Shown here one piece after another: positions 1 through 39,095 of a DNA stretch of 39,095 bases (the first letter of the stretch is position 1; each line of letters begins with the position of its first letter). Made by a program: the position numbers and the translations under genes. Source of the stretch: Candidatus Methanoperedens sp. (GTDB taxonomy: Archaea > Halobacteriota > Methanosarcinia > Methanosarcinales > Methanoperedenaceae); contig JAHFDG010000038.1 in the NCBI GenBank assembly GCA_023249105.1, positions 1 to 39,095 on the forward strand. Reading direction: 5' to 3'. Below the pieces are notes generated by a model. It did not search any database. It was given only the letters and a program-made list of their open reading frames with translations, and was not told the origin of the DNA.

Positions 1-109
1 GGGAGCAGACCCATGCAGTGGGATTTTAACCCTTTGAACATGCATTGTATTTTTCTTTCCTCCAAATGTTCTGTTTGTTGTACTTTCTTTCTTGTGCTTC
101 GAGGCACGC

Positions 110-150
110 AACGCAGATTTTGTTAAGCGAGTATCTGCGTTCATCTGCGG
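110..150. repeat. Short inverted repeat, ACGCAGAT type
   Basis: AACGCAGAT at 110-118 is the reverse complement of ATCTGCGTT at 133-141, and a further ATCTGCGG follows at 143-150. It lies in the gene-free left end, next to the larger palindrome at 165-235. Bases 1-109 show no gene or other structure that I can support. The function is unknown; it looks like a dispersed intergenic repeat. Confidence 0.5.
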
Positions 151-535: not shown

Positions 536-1855
536 TCACTGATGCAGCTTGTTGGGGTCGTACTTGTGGTCCAGTATCGCGTTTGTCATCTGGTCAAGCA
601 GGTATATCGAGCCATTGTAGCCCATGATGGAATACCTGTACACACCAACACGGTCGTACACAGGGAAACCAAAGCGCACAAGCGGAACGCCCTCATCATC
701 CGCAACGTCCTTGCCCTTGGAATTTCCAAGAATCAATTCCGCTCCCTGTGCTTCTACAACCTTGTGGAATTCATACAGGTCTGTACCTTCAAGGATTTGC
801 GTATCTGTTTTATATTCTGTATTTACTGCCTTTATGTCAGGTGCAAAGTCCTTATGCTTTGTAGCTGTCATCGCAACCGTGGGGTTCATTCCTGCTTCCG
901 CGCAGAATCTCACGATGGCAGACACAATATCAGGGTCGCCGAATATCGCGACTTTGCGCCCGTACATATAGTGGTGCACATCAACCATGCTGTCTATCAG
1001 CCTGCCGCGGTCTTTCTTGATCTCATCCGGGATCGGGGCACCGCTTAACTTACTGATATTCTGCACGAACCTGTCATTGTTAACGACTCCTATAGGCGCT
1101 GGAGCAAGCACAGCCGGCACTTTGAACTTATTCTGGAGATACGTTGCAGCAGAACCTGCTGTCCTGCATATCGCGATAGTACCCAGTGAATTTGCTGAAT
1201 CAATGATATCAGCAGGTTCTGTTCCTCCATCAGGCAGCAAGGGTTTGTGACCACCAGGCATAATAGGCGTATCAAGGGTCTCAGAGATATCGGACAGGAA
1301 TATGTTCTTCACATTCATGATGCGAAGCATGTTCTTTATCTCCCTGATATCGCCCGGATTAATTATGCCCGTGATGATGTTTATTTTGTTGTTAGGCTTA
1401 CCCTTCACAGCCAGCGTTTCCACGAGCGCCCGCATTGCATTATCATAACCTGTGAGATGAGTTCCCACATAGCTTGGAGTGGATGCGGGGATTATCTTCA
1501 TCGTATCATCGGGCGCAATCGCCTTCTTTGATATCAGTTTTACATCATCACCTATTGTCTCGCTCATGCATGTTGTGCATATACCGATAAGTGCTGGATT
1601 GATACGCGACTTCACGTTCTTTATCGCCTCTGTCAGGTTCTTTGCTCCGCCATAGACAGCGGCATCTTCAGCAAGCGAGGAAACTGCAACCTCAGCAGAT
1701 TCCCTGAAATGCCTTGCGATATTGTAGCGAGGGTACGTGCTGCATCCCTGAGAACCGTGCACAAGCGGCACACAGCCGTGTACTCCCATATACGCCAGTA
1801 TAGCGCCCATGGGCTGGCACATCTTGGGTGGATTAATTGTTACACTTCGCGCCAT
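536..1855 (-). CDS. nifK: Nitrogenase molybdenum-iron protein beta chain NifK
   Basis: NifK forms the alpha2-beta2 dinitrogenase with NifD and holds half of the P-cluster. Three expected P-cluster cysteines are visible: Cys13 in KMCQPMGA, Cys38 in GSQGCSTY and Cys96 in CTTCMSETIGDD. At 439 residues it is the short form, lacking the N-terminal extension of proteobacterial NifK, as in other archaeal and clostridial (cluster III-like) nitrogenases. The start ATG follows the nifD stop directly, with GGAGGTGA inside the end of nifD, so the two are translationally coupled. No delta subunit gene lies between nifD and nifK, which argues against a vanadium or iron-only enzyme. Confidence 0.96.
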   Translation of the reverse strand: MARSVTINPPKMCQPMGAILAYMGVHGCVPLVHGSQGCSTYPRYNIARHFRESAEVAVSSLAEDAAVYGGAKNLTEAIKNVKSRINPALIGICTTCMSETIGDDVKLISKKAIAPDDTMKIIPASTPSYVGTHLTGYDNAMRALVETLAVKGKPNNKINIITGIINPGDIREIKNMLRIMNVKNIFLSDISETLDTPIMPGGHKPLLPDGGTEPADIIDSANSLGTIAICRTAGSAATYLQNKFKVPAVLAPAPIGVVNNDRFVQNISKLSGAPIPDEIKKDRGRLIDSMVDVHHYMYGRKVAIFGDPDIVSAIVRFCAEAGMNPTVAMTATKHKDFAPDIKAVNTEYKTDTQILEGTDLYEFHKVVEAQGAELILGNSKGKDVADDEGVPLVRFGFPVYDRVGVYRYSIMGYNGSIYLLDQMTNAILDHKYDPNKLHQ

Positions 1856-3226
1856 TTACTTCACCTCCAGGGGCTGGTTTATGAACTTCCAAACAGGGCT
1901 GTTCACCGCGACATCAATATCCTTCGCAAAATTAACAAAGCCCTCAAATCCAGCATATGGCCCTTCTTCATAGGAATGACCGTTGATAAAGGGAATGCCC
2001 AGCTTGTATGTCAGGTATTTCTCCTTCAATCCGCCGATAAAGAAATCCGGCTTGAGCTTGACTAAGTATTCCTCTATCTCAAGAGCATTCGGATTGTCTA
2101 TGCAGATATGTCCTGGCTTTGCCTTTTCCATTATTTTTTCATAGTCATCCTTATGACCGAACGTAGTTGCCGTGAGGATCGTTTCGATGCCCAATTCCCG
2201 CATCGGTTCCATCCAGTGCCAGGCGCGCGGGGCTCCCTGGTATATGAAGCACTTCTTACCTTCAAGTTTCTTTCTATAGTGATCGATCCTGGACTGGTAC
2301 AATGCAAGCTCTTCTGCTATCACTTTTTCTGCATTCTCCTCGAGATGGAAGAACTTGCCAACATCGCGCAGAGCTTCTGCCGTCTGCGCCATGCCAAACA
2401 GGGATACGTTGATATATGGGACACCGTACTTGTCCTGTATCATCTTTGCGATATAGGTGGATGACCTCTGGCACTGCACGATATTCAGCTTTGCCCTGTG
2501 CATGGGTGGAATATCACTATACGAGGCATTGCCCGTAAATACCGAGAGAACTCTCACGCCCATCCTTTCAAACAACGGCTTGACGATCCAGGCATCGCCG
2601 TCGATATTGAATTCACCGACTATGCACATGTCGTAAGGTGTGGTCTCTTCAGGTTCCTCTGTCCCGACCACCTTCTCAAACAGCGTGCGGTTGGCGATGT
2701 GATGCCCCAGGGACTGGCTCACACCCCTGAAACCTTCGCAATGGAAGGGTATCACGGGTATCCCGATCTTTTCCTGCGCCTGCTTGCATATCGCATCTGT
2801 GTCGTCACCTATCAGCCCGACCACGCATGTGGAGTATACGAACACTGCCTTTCCTTCCGGAAAGAGTTCATGCGATTCGATTATCGAGTTGAGGAGCTTT
2901 TTTGCGCCTCCGTATATCACACTTTCTTCTGTCAGGTCGGTACTGAAGCAGTACTTCCTGTGCAGCTTCGTGTCTGAAAGGTTTCTGCGTGTGCCCCAGG
3001 TATAGTAGGCACATCCAATCGGTCCGTGCACAAGTTGTATTGCGTCCTTTACAGGCCCGCCAACTACGCCCCTGCATCCTGCGAACGTGCAGCCGCGCTC
3101 GGTCATGTCACCGGGAACTGTCTGGACATTGCACATTGGCAATACCATGTTCCCAGGCTCATGGCAAACGATGTGCGGCTTGCGCTGCGGTATGGGGATA
3201 TCGCATTCCGGTAATATTGTTGTCAT
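1856..3226 (-). CDS. nifD: Nitrogenase molybdenum-iron protein alpha chain NifD
   Basis: NifD carries the active-site cofactor of dinitrogenase. Expected P-cluster ligands are Cys46, Cys72 and Cys134. The cofactor pocket shows EGFRGVSQSLGHH (Gln171, His175, matching Azotobacter Gln191 and His195), Cys252 in NIVQCQRS (matching Cys275) and His417 in NGHSYEEGPY (matching His442). The 456-residue length and the segment GAPRAWHW at 331-338 differ from Azotobacter NifD and recall V/Fe-type chains in that loop. The rest of the pocket and the missing delta subunit favour the Mo type. The RBS is AGGAGTAA. A 109-bp gap holding a large palindrome separates it from nifI2. Confidence 0.95.
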   Translation of the reverse strand: MTTILPECDIPIPQRKPHIVCHEPGNMVLPMCNVQTVPGDMTERGCTFAGCRGVVGGPVKDAIQLVHGPIGCAYYTWGTRRNLSDTKLHRKYCFSTDLTEESVIYGGAKKLLNSIIESHELFPEGKAVFVYSTCVVGLIGDDTDAICKQAQEKIGIPVIPFHCEGFRGVSQSLGHHIANRTLFEKVVGTEEPEETTPYDMCIVGEFNIDGDAWIVKPLFERMGVRVLSVFTGNASYSDIPPMHRAKLNIVQCQRSSTYIAKMIQDKYGVPYINVSLFGMAQTAEALRDVGKFFHLEENAEKVIAEELALYQSRIDHYRKKLEGKKCFIYQGAPRAWHWMEPMRELGIETILTATTFGHKDDYEKIMEKAKPGHICIDNPNALEIEEYLVKLKPDFFIGGLKEKYLTYKLGIPFINGHSYEEGPYAGFEGFVNFAKDIDVAVNSPVWKFINQPLEVK

Positions 3227-3261
3227 TTTTTGTTACTCCTGTTATGTTTTTATATGAATTT

Positions 3262-3332
3262 CACCGCAAAGAACGCAAAGGGCGCAAAGCACAGTAACAA
3301 CAATCTTTGCGTTCTTTGCGAACTTTGCGGTG
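3262..3332. repeat. Dispersed palindrome family A, copy 2, inside the nif operon
   Basis: Arms at 3262-3289 and 3305-3332 (28 nt each, 15-nt loop) have the same 9-nt GCAAAG period as copy 1. It fills the gap between the nifI2 stop (3336) and the nifD start (3226), so it would be transcribed as a long hairpin within the nif mRNA. A possible effect is a processing or stability boundary between regulatory (H, I1, I2) and structural (D, K) parts; this is inference. Confidence 0.85.
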
Positions 3333-3335
3333 CAT

Positions 3336-3713
3336 CTACTTGATTGCCTGTTCTCCGCTCTCTCCTGTCCTTACTCTCACAGCATCATCCACAGGACACA
3401 CGAAAATCTTTCCATCCCCTATGTGCCCGCTCTGGTTGGTTCTGATTATAGTCTCAACCACTTTCGGGACATCATCATCATCAACCACTGTGTATATCAT
3501 CCTCTTGGGAATAAAGCGCATGCTTGTGCCGGTATTTTTCTCTTCCACCTCTGTTAGCGTGGGGTCAAGTTCATAATTCCAGCCTGGCAGTCCTTTCTGT
3601 TTACCTCTGCCTTCGACGCTTATCATTGTGAGCGCAGGGACACCTATTCCAAGAAGACCTGCTTTTGTCTCCTGCAAATTATGTCTTCGGATTATTGCGA
3701 TAACTTCCTTCAT
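3336..3713 (-). CDS. nifI2: Nitrogenase-regulating PII protein NifI2
   Basis: This is a PII-family protein of 125 residues. It has the PII core (GRGKQKG in the T-loop region, GHIGDGKIFVCPVDDAVRVRTGE at the C-terminal signature) but an enlarged T-loop between them. That enlargement is typical of NifI2, which with NifI1 inhibits dinitrogenase under ammonium and is relieved by 2-oxoglutarate in methanogens. It starts 8 bp after the nifI1 stop with an AGGTGAGG ribosome-binding site. Its place between nifH and nifD is the hallmark archaeal arrangement. Confidence 0.94.
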   Translation of the reverse strand: MKEVIAIIRRHNLQETKAGLLGIGVPALTMISVEGRGKQKGLPGWNYELDPTLTEVEEKNTGTSMRFIPKRMIYTVVDDDDVPKVVETIIRTNQSGHIGDGKIFVCPVDDAVRVRTGESGEQAIK

Positions 3714-3721
3714 GACCTCAC

Positions 3722-4039
3722 CTATAATCCCGATTCTCCAGTCCTCACAGTGTAGGCTTCTGAAACATCGGTCACGAATATCTTACCGTCCCCGATATTC
3801 CCGGTGCGTGCGCTGTTCTGGATAACATTTACCGCTTTTGTTACTTCCTCATCATTCACAACAAGCATCAGCATCACTTTGGGTAGTTCATCGTAACATA
3901 CCGTCCCTACCCTGATACCCTTCTGTTTGCCGCGCCCGAACACGTTCATCTTGGTCATGGAGTAAAATCCATCTTTTTCCAGGTGCTCTACGACTTTTTC
4001 TTCCTTGTTTGGTCTGATTATTGCACGAATCATCTTCAT
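3722..4039 (-). CDS. nifI1: Nitrogenase-regulating PII protein NifI1
   Basis: This PII-family protein of 105 residues begins MKMIRAIIRP, with GRGKQKGIRVG as T-loop base and GNIGDGKIFV plus RTGE near the C-terminus. The T-loop lacks the GlnB/GlnK-type Tyr51 context, as expected for NifI1. I chose the ATG at 4039 because GAGGTGA lies just upstream, overlapping the nifH end; an upstream ATG at 4057 would overlap nifH by 14 bases and has no better RBS. With NifI2 it forms the complex that switches nitrogenase off after ammonium addition. Confidence 0.94.
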   Translation of the reverse strand: MKMIRAIIRPNKEEKVVEHLEKDGFYSMTKMNVFGRGKQKGIRVGTVCYDELPKVMLMLVVNDEEVTKAVNVIQNSARTGNIGDGKIFVTDVSEAYTVRTGESGL

Positions 4040-4043
4040 GTTA

Positions 4044-4952
<909 letters not shown>

Positions 4953-38488: not shown

Positions 38489-38976
38489 CTATTTTCTTCC
38501 CCGGAACAGAAGCGGAATAATCCCTATAACCACAAGAACGCTCCCGAACCAGAGTAGAGTCATGCCAGGAATAACCCTCACGTTGGCAACAGAGATGAAA
38601 ATAGGAGTTTCAGTACCTATCCCCTGGTATCTTACGTTGACATCAGCAAGAAGTCCCCTGTATATCAAAGGCTCGGTTATGAATTCTCCTTTGATTTCCC
38701 TGAAACTTGCCGCACCGGAATCTATCAGAACCCCGTCTTTGTAGATATTGTACACGCCGATTTTTGTTAAAACGGCTGAAGCGTGTTTATGCGCCACGGG
38801 AAAAGCGAGGTTCTCAAGCTGGATCTCGTATACGCCTAATTCAGGTATCTTGCTCATGACGCTTTTCTTTTCATGGAATTTCATGAACAGCACGGTTTCT
38901 GAATTTGCATAAGCGCTCATGAGTACACCGATGAGAATAATCGCAATCCCAAGATGAACAATATGGGGACCGCTTG
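38489..38976 (-). CDS. CcmF-like cytochrome c maturation protein, 3' exon
   Basis: The frame running leftward from the intron junction codes about 161 residues starting SGPHIVHLGIAIILIGVL. This is the GGxxVHLG-type helix of CcmF. A periplasmic beta region (YEIQLENLAFPV, DGVLIDSGAASFREIKGEF, TPIFISVANVRV) and a last helix (GMTLLWFGSVLVVIGIIPLLF) follow. The upstream part of the gene is beyond the intron, outside the window. An ATG at 38920 could be read as a start, but the homology reaches past it. The CcmF call is from memory of the family. Confidence 0.65.
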
Positions 38977-39095
38977 GTAGAGTAAAAGAGAGGTCTTAAC
39001 AACCTCCCTCTCCTCATCAAACTGCACGGACTGATTTCCAGTATGCAGCTTTCGTTTGGCAATCCCTTTTCAAGAAATGGTTTCATCCAGTAATA
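38977..39095 (-). mobile_element. Group II intron, 3' end (domains V and VI), partial
   Basis: On the minus strand 39051-39019 folds as domain V. A 9-bp lower stem AAGCTGCAT/GTGCAGTTT carries the catalytic AGC, then a CC bulge, then an upper stem ACTGG/TCAGT with AAA loop. Domain VI follows: GAGAGGGAGGT pairs with ACCTCTCTTTT (loop near 39000), then a bulged A at 38983, then GAG/CTC. The bulged A is 7 nt from the 3' end CTCTAC (38977), the normal branch-point distance. The intron-encoded protein and 5' end lie beyond the window. Confidence 0.85.

Follow-up and report, generated by a model that had tools for sequence, protein, structure and literature searches.

Does a group II intron interrupt a cytochrome c maturation gene at the right-hand end of this archaeal DNA, and would splicing restore that gene? 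The window, i.e., the whole stretch analysed, is the complete 39,095-bp contig C126 of a Ca. Methanoperedens genome bin (3.28 Mb, 134 contigs, 99.7% complete). We consider it very probable (about 85%) that it ends within a ccmF-like gene carrying a mobile group II intron of roughly 2 kb, one of nine near-identical copies.

Intron termini and the split ccmF-like gene

The features at the right-hand end of the window are as follows.

38489 to 38976, minus strand: 3' exon of the ccmF-like gene, in which 2 nt from a split codon precede 161 codons and a stop, its first base (C at 38976) being the presumed IBS3 (NCBIfam nrfE/CcmF C-terminal match, Pfam CcmF_C, continuous orthologues)
38977 to 39095, minus strand: last 119 nt of a group II intron, running from the final part of the reverse-transcriptase/domain IV region through domains V and VI to the 3' splice site ...CTCTAC (RF00029, nine identical contig-end copies, empty site in a relative)
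38980 to 39015, minus strand: domain VI helix with a single bulged adenosine, the branch point, at 38983 (pair counts over 18 homologues)
39019 to 39051, minus strand: domain V helix with AGC triad, GAAA-type loop and CCG bulge (RF00029 and homologue pair counts)

The first-pass annotation of the window had folded domains V and VI by hand, and its AGC triad, domain V bulge, lone bulged A and ...CTCTAC terminus were all found as described. The group II covariance model of Rfam (RF00029) recognises domain V, matching 38977-39053 on the minus strand over model positions 1-77 of 77 with 45.5 bits (E=5.9e-6; gathering score 40 bits). Covariation agrees with this identification. When the domain V-VI region of 18 homologues was aligned and pairs were counted on one explicit structure, 27 of 27 pairs were present in the window sequence, 99.2% of the 485 cells over the homologues were paired, and 8 pairs had changed on both sides. 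Double-change cells numbered 49, against 1-5 in controls slid by 1-3 columns, and the covariation score was matched by none of 500 shuffles. The bulged A, seventh nucleotide from the 3' end, is invariant in the 18 sequences.

A search for the adjoining 5' exon and intron 5' end, which the annotation had set as its check, located both on contig C89. The genome holds ten Cytochrom_C_asm genes. In one of them, on C89, the frame is still open where the contig stops, and the likeness to CcmF is lost 38 codons earlier; this non-CcmF tail is a sequence present nine times, identically, at contig ends. The two exons are distributed over two contigs (5' exon on C89, 3' exon on C126), each stopping at a contig end, and a ccmE-like frame is found upstream of the 5' exon.

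The exact boundaries are given by an uninterrupted ccmF orthologue in a related genome (G026; 88% nucleotide identity across the junction), which reads AATAAGCTGCGTTCAAGCGG, with the junction at AATAAGCTGCGTT|CAAGCGG. This empty site unambiguously places the end of the 5' exon at ...CTGCGTT and the start of the 3' exon at CAAGCGG, so that the insert is exactly GCGTGCC...CTCTAC and the unspliced junctions are CTGCGTT|GCGTGCC (5') and CTCTAC|CAAGCGG (3'). A different placement, guessed from the frame and a GT start (5' exon ...CTGC, intron GTTGCG), was ruled out because the empty site retains GTT in the exon. A 5' end of the GTGCG type had been anticipated; the empty site and the relatives, in which all intron starts read GCGTGC, show GCGTG instead. 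The 5' terminus GCGUG is thus one base off the GUGYG consensus (U2 to C), and the 3' AC agrees with the consensus AY.

The CcmF-like frame reopens at the junction without its first codon base (nCA AGC GGT ...), and its proposed exact resumption there is supported by the 5' exon on C89, the empty site and EBS1-IBS1 complementarity. The joined exons read ...NGIKNKLRSSGPHIVHLG... and encode a CcmF/NrfE-like protein of 640 aa that aligns without gaps to the G026 orthologue at the junction (...NKLR(S)SGPHIVHLG...); on RNA, the spliced junction would join AATAAGCTGCGTT to CAAGCGGTCCCC. Orthologues in G021, G033, G038 and G034 are likewise uninterrupted across the junction (G021 and G033 at 66-67% identity), and no uninterrupted ccmF allele was found in the genome bin itself.

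The CcmF-like identity assigned to the gene was upheld by the Cytochrom_C_asm and nrfE/CcmF matches, the located 5' exon and the orthologues. The 3' exon alone yields the NCBIfam C-terminal match and a sub-threshold match to Pfam CcmF_C (25.3 bits). The spliced product scores 96.2 bits against Cytochrom_C_asm, above the cut-off, with the CcmF-type C-terminal part in the same frame, and it matches nrfE/CcmF over positions 58-639 with 182 bits, far under the NCBIfam CcmF/NrfE subfamily cut-off of 569 bits. The family searches with the joined protein used a 639-aa version (NKLPSGPH for NKLRSSGPH), which differs in one local stretch.

Intron copies, insertion sites and the intron body

Nine copies of the 119-nt 3' end and nine of the matching 5' end are present in the genome, identical within each set and always at a contig end. 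The assembly broke at these points because nine near-identical copies collapsed and their bodies were lost, and the nine copies hence account for nine assembly breaks. Accordingly, a search of the genome's own assembly found no RVT_1 domain. The identity of the ends further indicates that the insertion is recent. A second copy lies at the left-hand end of the window.

1 to 109, minus strand: 5' end of the second intron copy (first 109 nt, GCGTGCC...), downstream of nif genes (100% identity to the 5' end on C89)
110 to 116, minus strand: CTGCGTT, the IBS1 of the 5' exon next to this second copy (complementary to the EBS1 of the complete intron in genome G013)
135 to 148, plus strand: unoccupied copy of the repeat CTGCGTTCATCTGC, which contains the intron target (genome-wide, 20 occurrences; reversed control, 0)

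The window is flanked by two copies in the same orientation (1-109 and 38977-39095, both minus), about 38.9 kb apart. Frames resembling nifH, nifI1, nifI2, nifD and nifK, identified by eye, occupy 536-4868 (minus), with the left-hand copy just downstream; recombination between the two flanking copies could remove the nif operon and the 3' end of ccmF.

All nine copies are preceded by CTGCGTT, or at least by TGCGTT. Considering the 20 uninterrupted copies of CTGCGTTCATCTGC, of which one is 26 bp away from the left-hand intron copy, we conclude that the target of this lineage belongs to a common intergenic repeat and that its two insertions in genes are chance matches. The 3' flank CATCTGCGTTTATCTGCGG is common to several other intron copies. 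The second coding insertion splits a P-type ATPase (C133|C109) with the same intron boundaries, at the junction GCATTACTGCGTT|CATAAAGGGG; the in-frame join reads ...PRGITAFIKGAPEVVLG..., and the joined protein matches PMR1-type Ca ATPases over its length. A third copy (C65|C74) is antisense at an ATGA gene overlap, its contigs being paired, less certainly, by gene continuity. In relatives, the eight copies delimited at both ends and the 3' ends inspected yielded no further convincing in-frame coding insertions. The same genome also contains a second group II intron family, seen as three domain V hits without RVT_1 (L009 on C102, L010 on C52 and L011 on C7; 62.6-63.8 bits).

The known sequence of the ccmF copy amounts to about 114 nt of each intron end, and its likely possession of a full reverse-transcriptase body is suggested by a complete relative. 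This copy (L071), in G013 (Ca. Methanoperedens isolate Fe_173), is 2021 nt long, is 94% identical at the 5' end and 95% at the 3' end, and encodes an RT-maturase of 405 aa (TIGR04416, 418.6 bits) in which RVT_1 and GIIM domains are recognised, with no endonuclease domain among its domain matches. Its EBS1 loop, AACGCAG, is the exact complement of CTGCGTT in the ccmF exon. In the same alignment column, other 5' exons are accompanied by other matching EBS1 sequences (TCGAAT with ATTCGA, CGATTCA with TGAATCG), so the pairing covaries: of seven distinct introns, six form 5-7 of the 7 pairs. Over all seven, 39 of 49 pairs form against a permuted mean of 22, and 18 of 5040 permutations were as good; these counts include the G031 intron, whose EBS1 lies one column off (0/7 pairs at the common offset, 6/7 one column away).

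Splicing and alternative explanations

The most likely course of insertion is that an intron ribonucleoprotein with the EBS1 AACGCAG recognised CTGCGTT|C in ccmF, where the intron would have reverse-spliced and then been copied by its reverse transcriptase/maturase. In a sense transcript, the EBS1-IBS1 pairing would set the 5' splice site, which the bulged A of domain VI would attack; the exons would then join, restoring the 640-aa protein, and the intron would leave as a lariat. Both retrohoming and splicing in vivo are inferred. That the ccmF intron is spliced appears reasonably probable, as all elements that splicing should need are there.

The first-pass annotation had argued that splicing is probably efficient, as c-type cytochromes would otherwise be lost. 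This argument proved weak, since the genome encodes at least four other CcmF-like genes, on C85 (762 aa), C124 (672 aa), C47 (673 aa) and C46 (561 aa, cut by the contig end), and since the split gene is patchily distributed. The canonical motif WGGFWGWDPVEN is present in the gene on C47; the split gene has WIWDPAFT. Of the 59 other genomes searched, only 7 have a close orthologue of the split gene; in one of these 7 (G016) it is decayed, with stops in a partial match. Judging from these sequences, the split gene is an accessory paralogue.

The same observations lend weight to a real insertion that is poorly spliced or not spliced at all, with ccmF knocked out, tolerated thanks to the other CcmF-like genes, and decaying. 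We regard this explanation as plausible, though not as the probable one. In its favour are also the small number of relatives with the gene and the youth of the insertion, given which the intact exons are uninformative on selection for splicing. Against it, the 7-nt IBS1 is perfect, domains V and VI are intact and the junction is in frame, all of which splicing needs, and the intron ends are the same as in the eight sister copies.

It is unlikely that the ccmF copy instead lacks the ORF, being a shortened derivative that depends on the maturase of another copy, acting in trans, for its mobility and splicing. There is a precedent in the trans-acting maturases of Thermosynechococcus elongatus (PMC2882425), and a 426-nt ORF-less derivative with both ends intact does exist in a related genome (G031, L079 282-707); however, the ends found here resemble those of the full-length G013 copy in carrying RT-proximal domain IV sequence, and the ccmF copy itself provides no direct evidence for such a derivative. 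A contig-end artefact, i.e., a collapsed intron repeat wrongly joined to ccmF or an insertion in only some cells, might be suspected from the fragmented bin, the exons at contig ends and the missing body, but is very improbable, given that the points at which two contigs stop complement each other exactly within one gene, base-exact with the G026 empty site, that the ATPase gene repeats the pattern, that the bin lacks an uninterrupted allele, and that overhangs of ~100-119 nt into the repeat are expected from reads spanning unique flank.

Comparison with known introns

The recently mobile group II intron in the ccmF-like gene is real, and its type is already known. Its unusual traits are the in-frame coding insertions in an archaeon, the GCGUG start, the repeat-derived target and the nine copies. 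In bacteria, housekeeping genes are rarely interrupted by group II introns (PMC6003770, PMC4424553). The efficiency of group II splicing from cellular mRNA in Archaea is debated in models of intron origin, and an archaeon with two in-frame insertions in conserved genes, identical copies and known empty sites offers a natural test of it. A search of the open-access literature found no paper naming both group II introns and Methanoperedens.

Relatives of the intron include a copy on NZ_JMIY01000001.1 of Ca. Methanoperedens nitroreducens ANME-2d. In G026, the 3' ends of two copies (L040 and L066, on C120 and C97) are 99-100% identical to that of the ccmF intron, compared with 87% amino acid identity for the ccmF orthologue, which suggests a recent transfer between species. 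Several relatives with other EBS1s (L069, L070, L078, L079, L081, L082) show a stable hairpin 8-12 nt before the insertion, and none was seen before the ccmF site, most sister sites or the G013 copy, both in a small sample judged against mononucleotide shuffles. A switch of target type between the hairpin-linked relatives and the hairpin-less CTGCGTT lineage is possible. Rather more speculatively, a GCGUG-start archaeal lineage may have left hairpin-linked intergenic sites, adopted the repeat-derived target CTGCGTT|C, reached nine copies and come to interrupt conserved protein genes whose expression relies on routine splicing, which would give an archaeon organelle-like intron-containing genes; we consider this whole scenario doubtful.

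The split gene shares with the CcmF/NrfE heme lyase family the Cytochrom_C_asm domain, the family match over the spliced protein and the ccmE-like neighbour, and it differs in its score below the subfamily cut-off and its divergent tryptophan motif. The Rfam D1-D4 class models gave no match to the ccmF-type intron, and an RF02012 match in L069 was dropped as class evidence because it is located in a neighbouring intron. By sequence, the nearest solved maturases are of group IIC (7uim from E. rectale, 6ar1 GsI-IIC). The intron further resembles group IIC/bacterial-C introns in lacking an endonuclease domain and in having hairpin-linked relatives. Group IIC introns carry a CGC triad in domain V; in contrast, the triad here is AGC, and the CTGCGTT lineage has no upstream hairpin, so we leave the class unassigned between C, D and CL1, the published archaeal intron-encoded proteins falling into classes C, D, CL1A and CL1B (PMC8919778).

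The introns of Methanosarcina acetivorans and other Methanosarcinia combine a group II ribozyme with an RT-maturase in the same archaeal class. Three relatives (L069 at 2531, L070 at 3133 and L056 at 2334, including the ANME-2d copy) sit directly behind another group II intron 3' end and recall the nested introns of M. acetivorans. The introns of M. acetivorans have no coding exons, whereas Ca. Methanoperedens has two in-frame insertions in conserved genes and nine copies that agree fully at their ends; intron-bearing archaeal genomes hold 3.0 +/- 2.2 copies on average (PMC8919778). The TeI3/TeI4 introns of T. elongatus (28 copies; PMC2882425) are similar in their multi-copy burst, their diverged EBS1 target families and their insertion beside other introns, and one of them, TeI4h, is located in a putatively essential tRNA gene (PMC2882425). 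They are bacterial, thermophilic and of group IIB, whereas the Ca. Methanoperedens copies are archaeal, and those with known targets lie either within genes or in an intergenic repeat that contains CTGCGTT.
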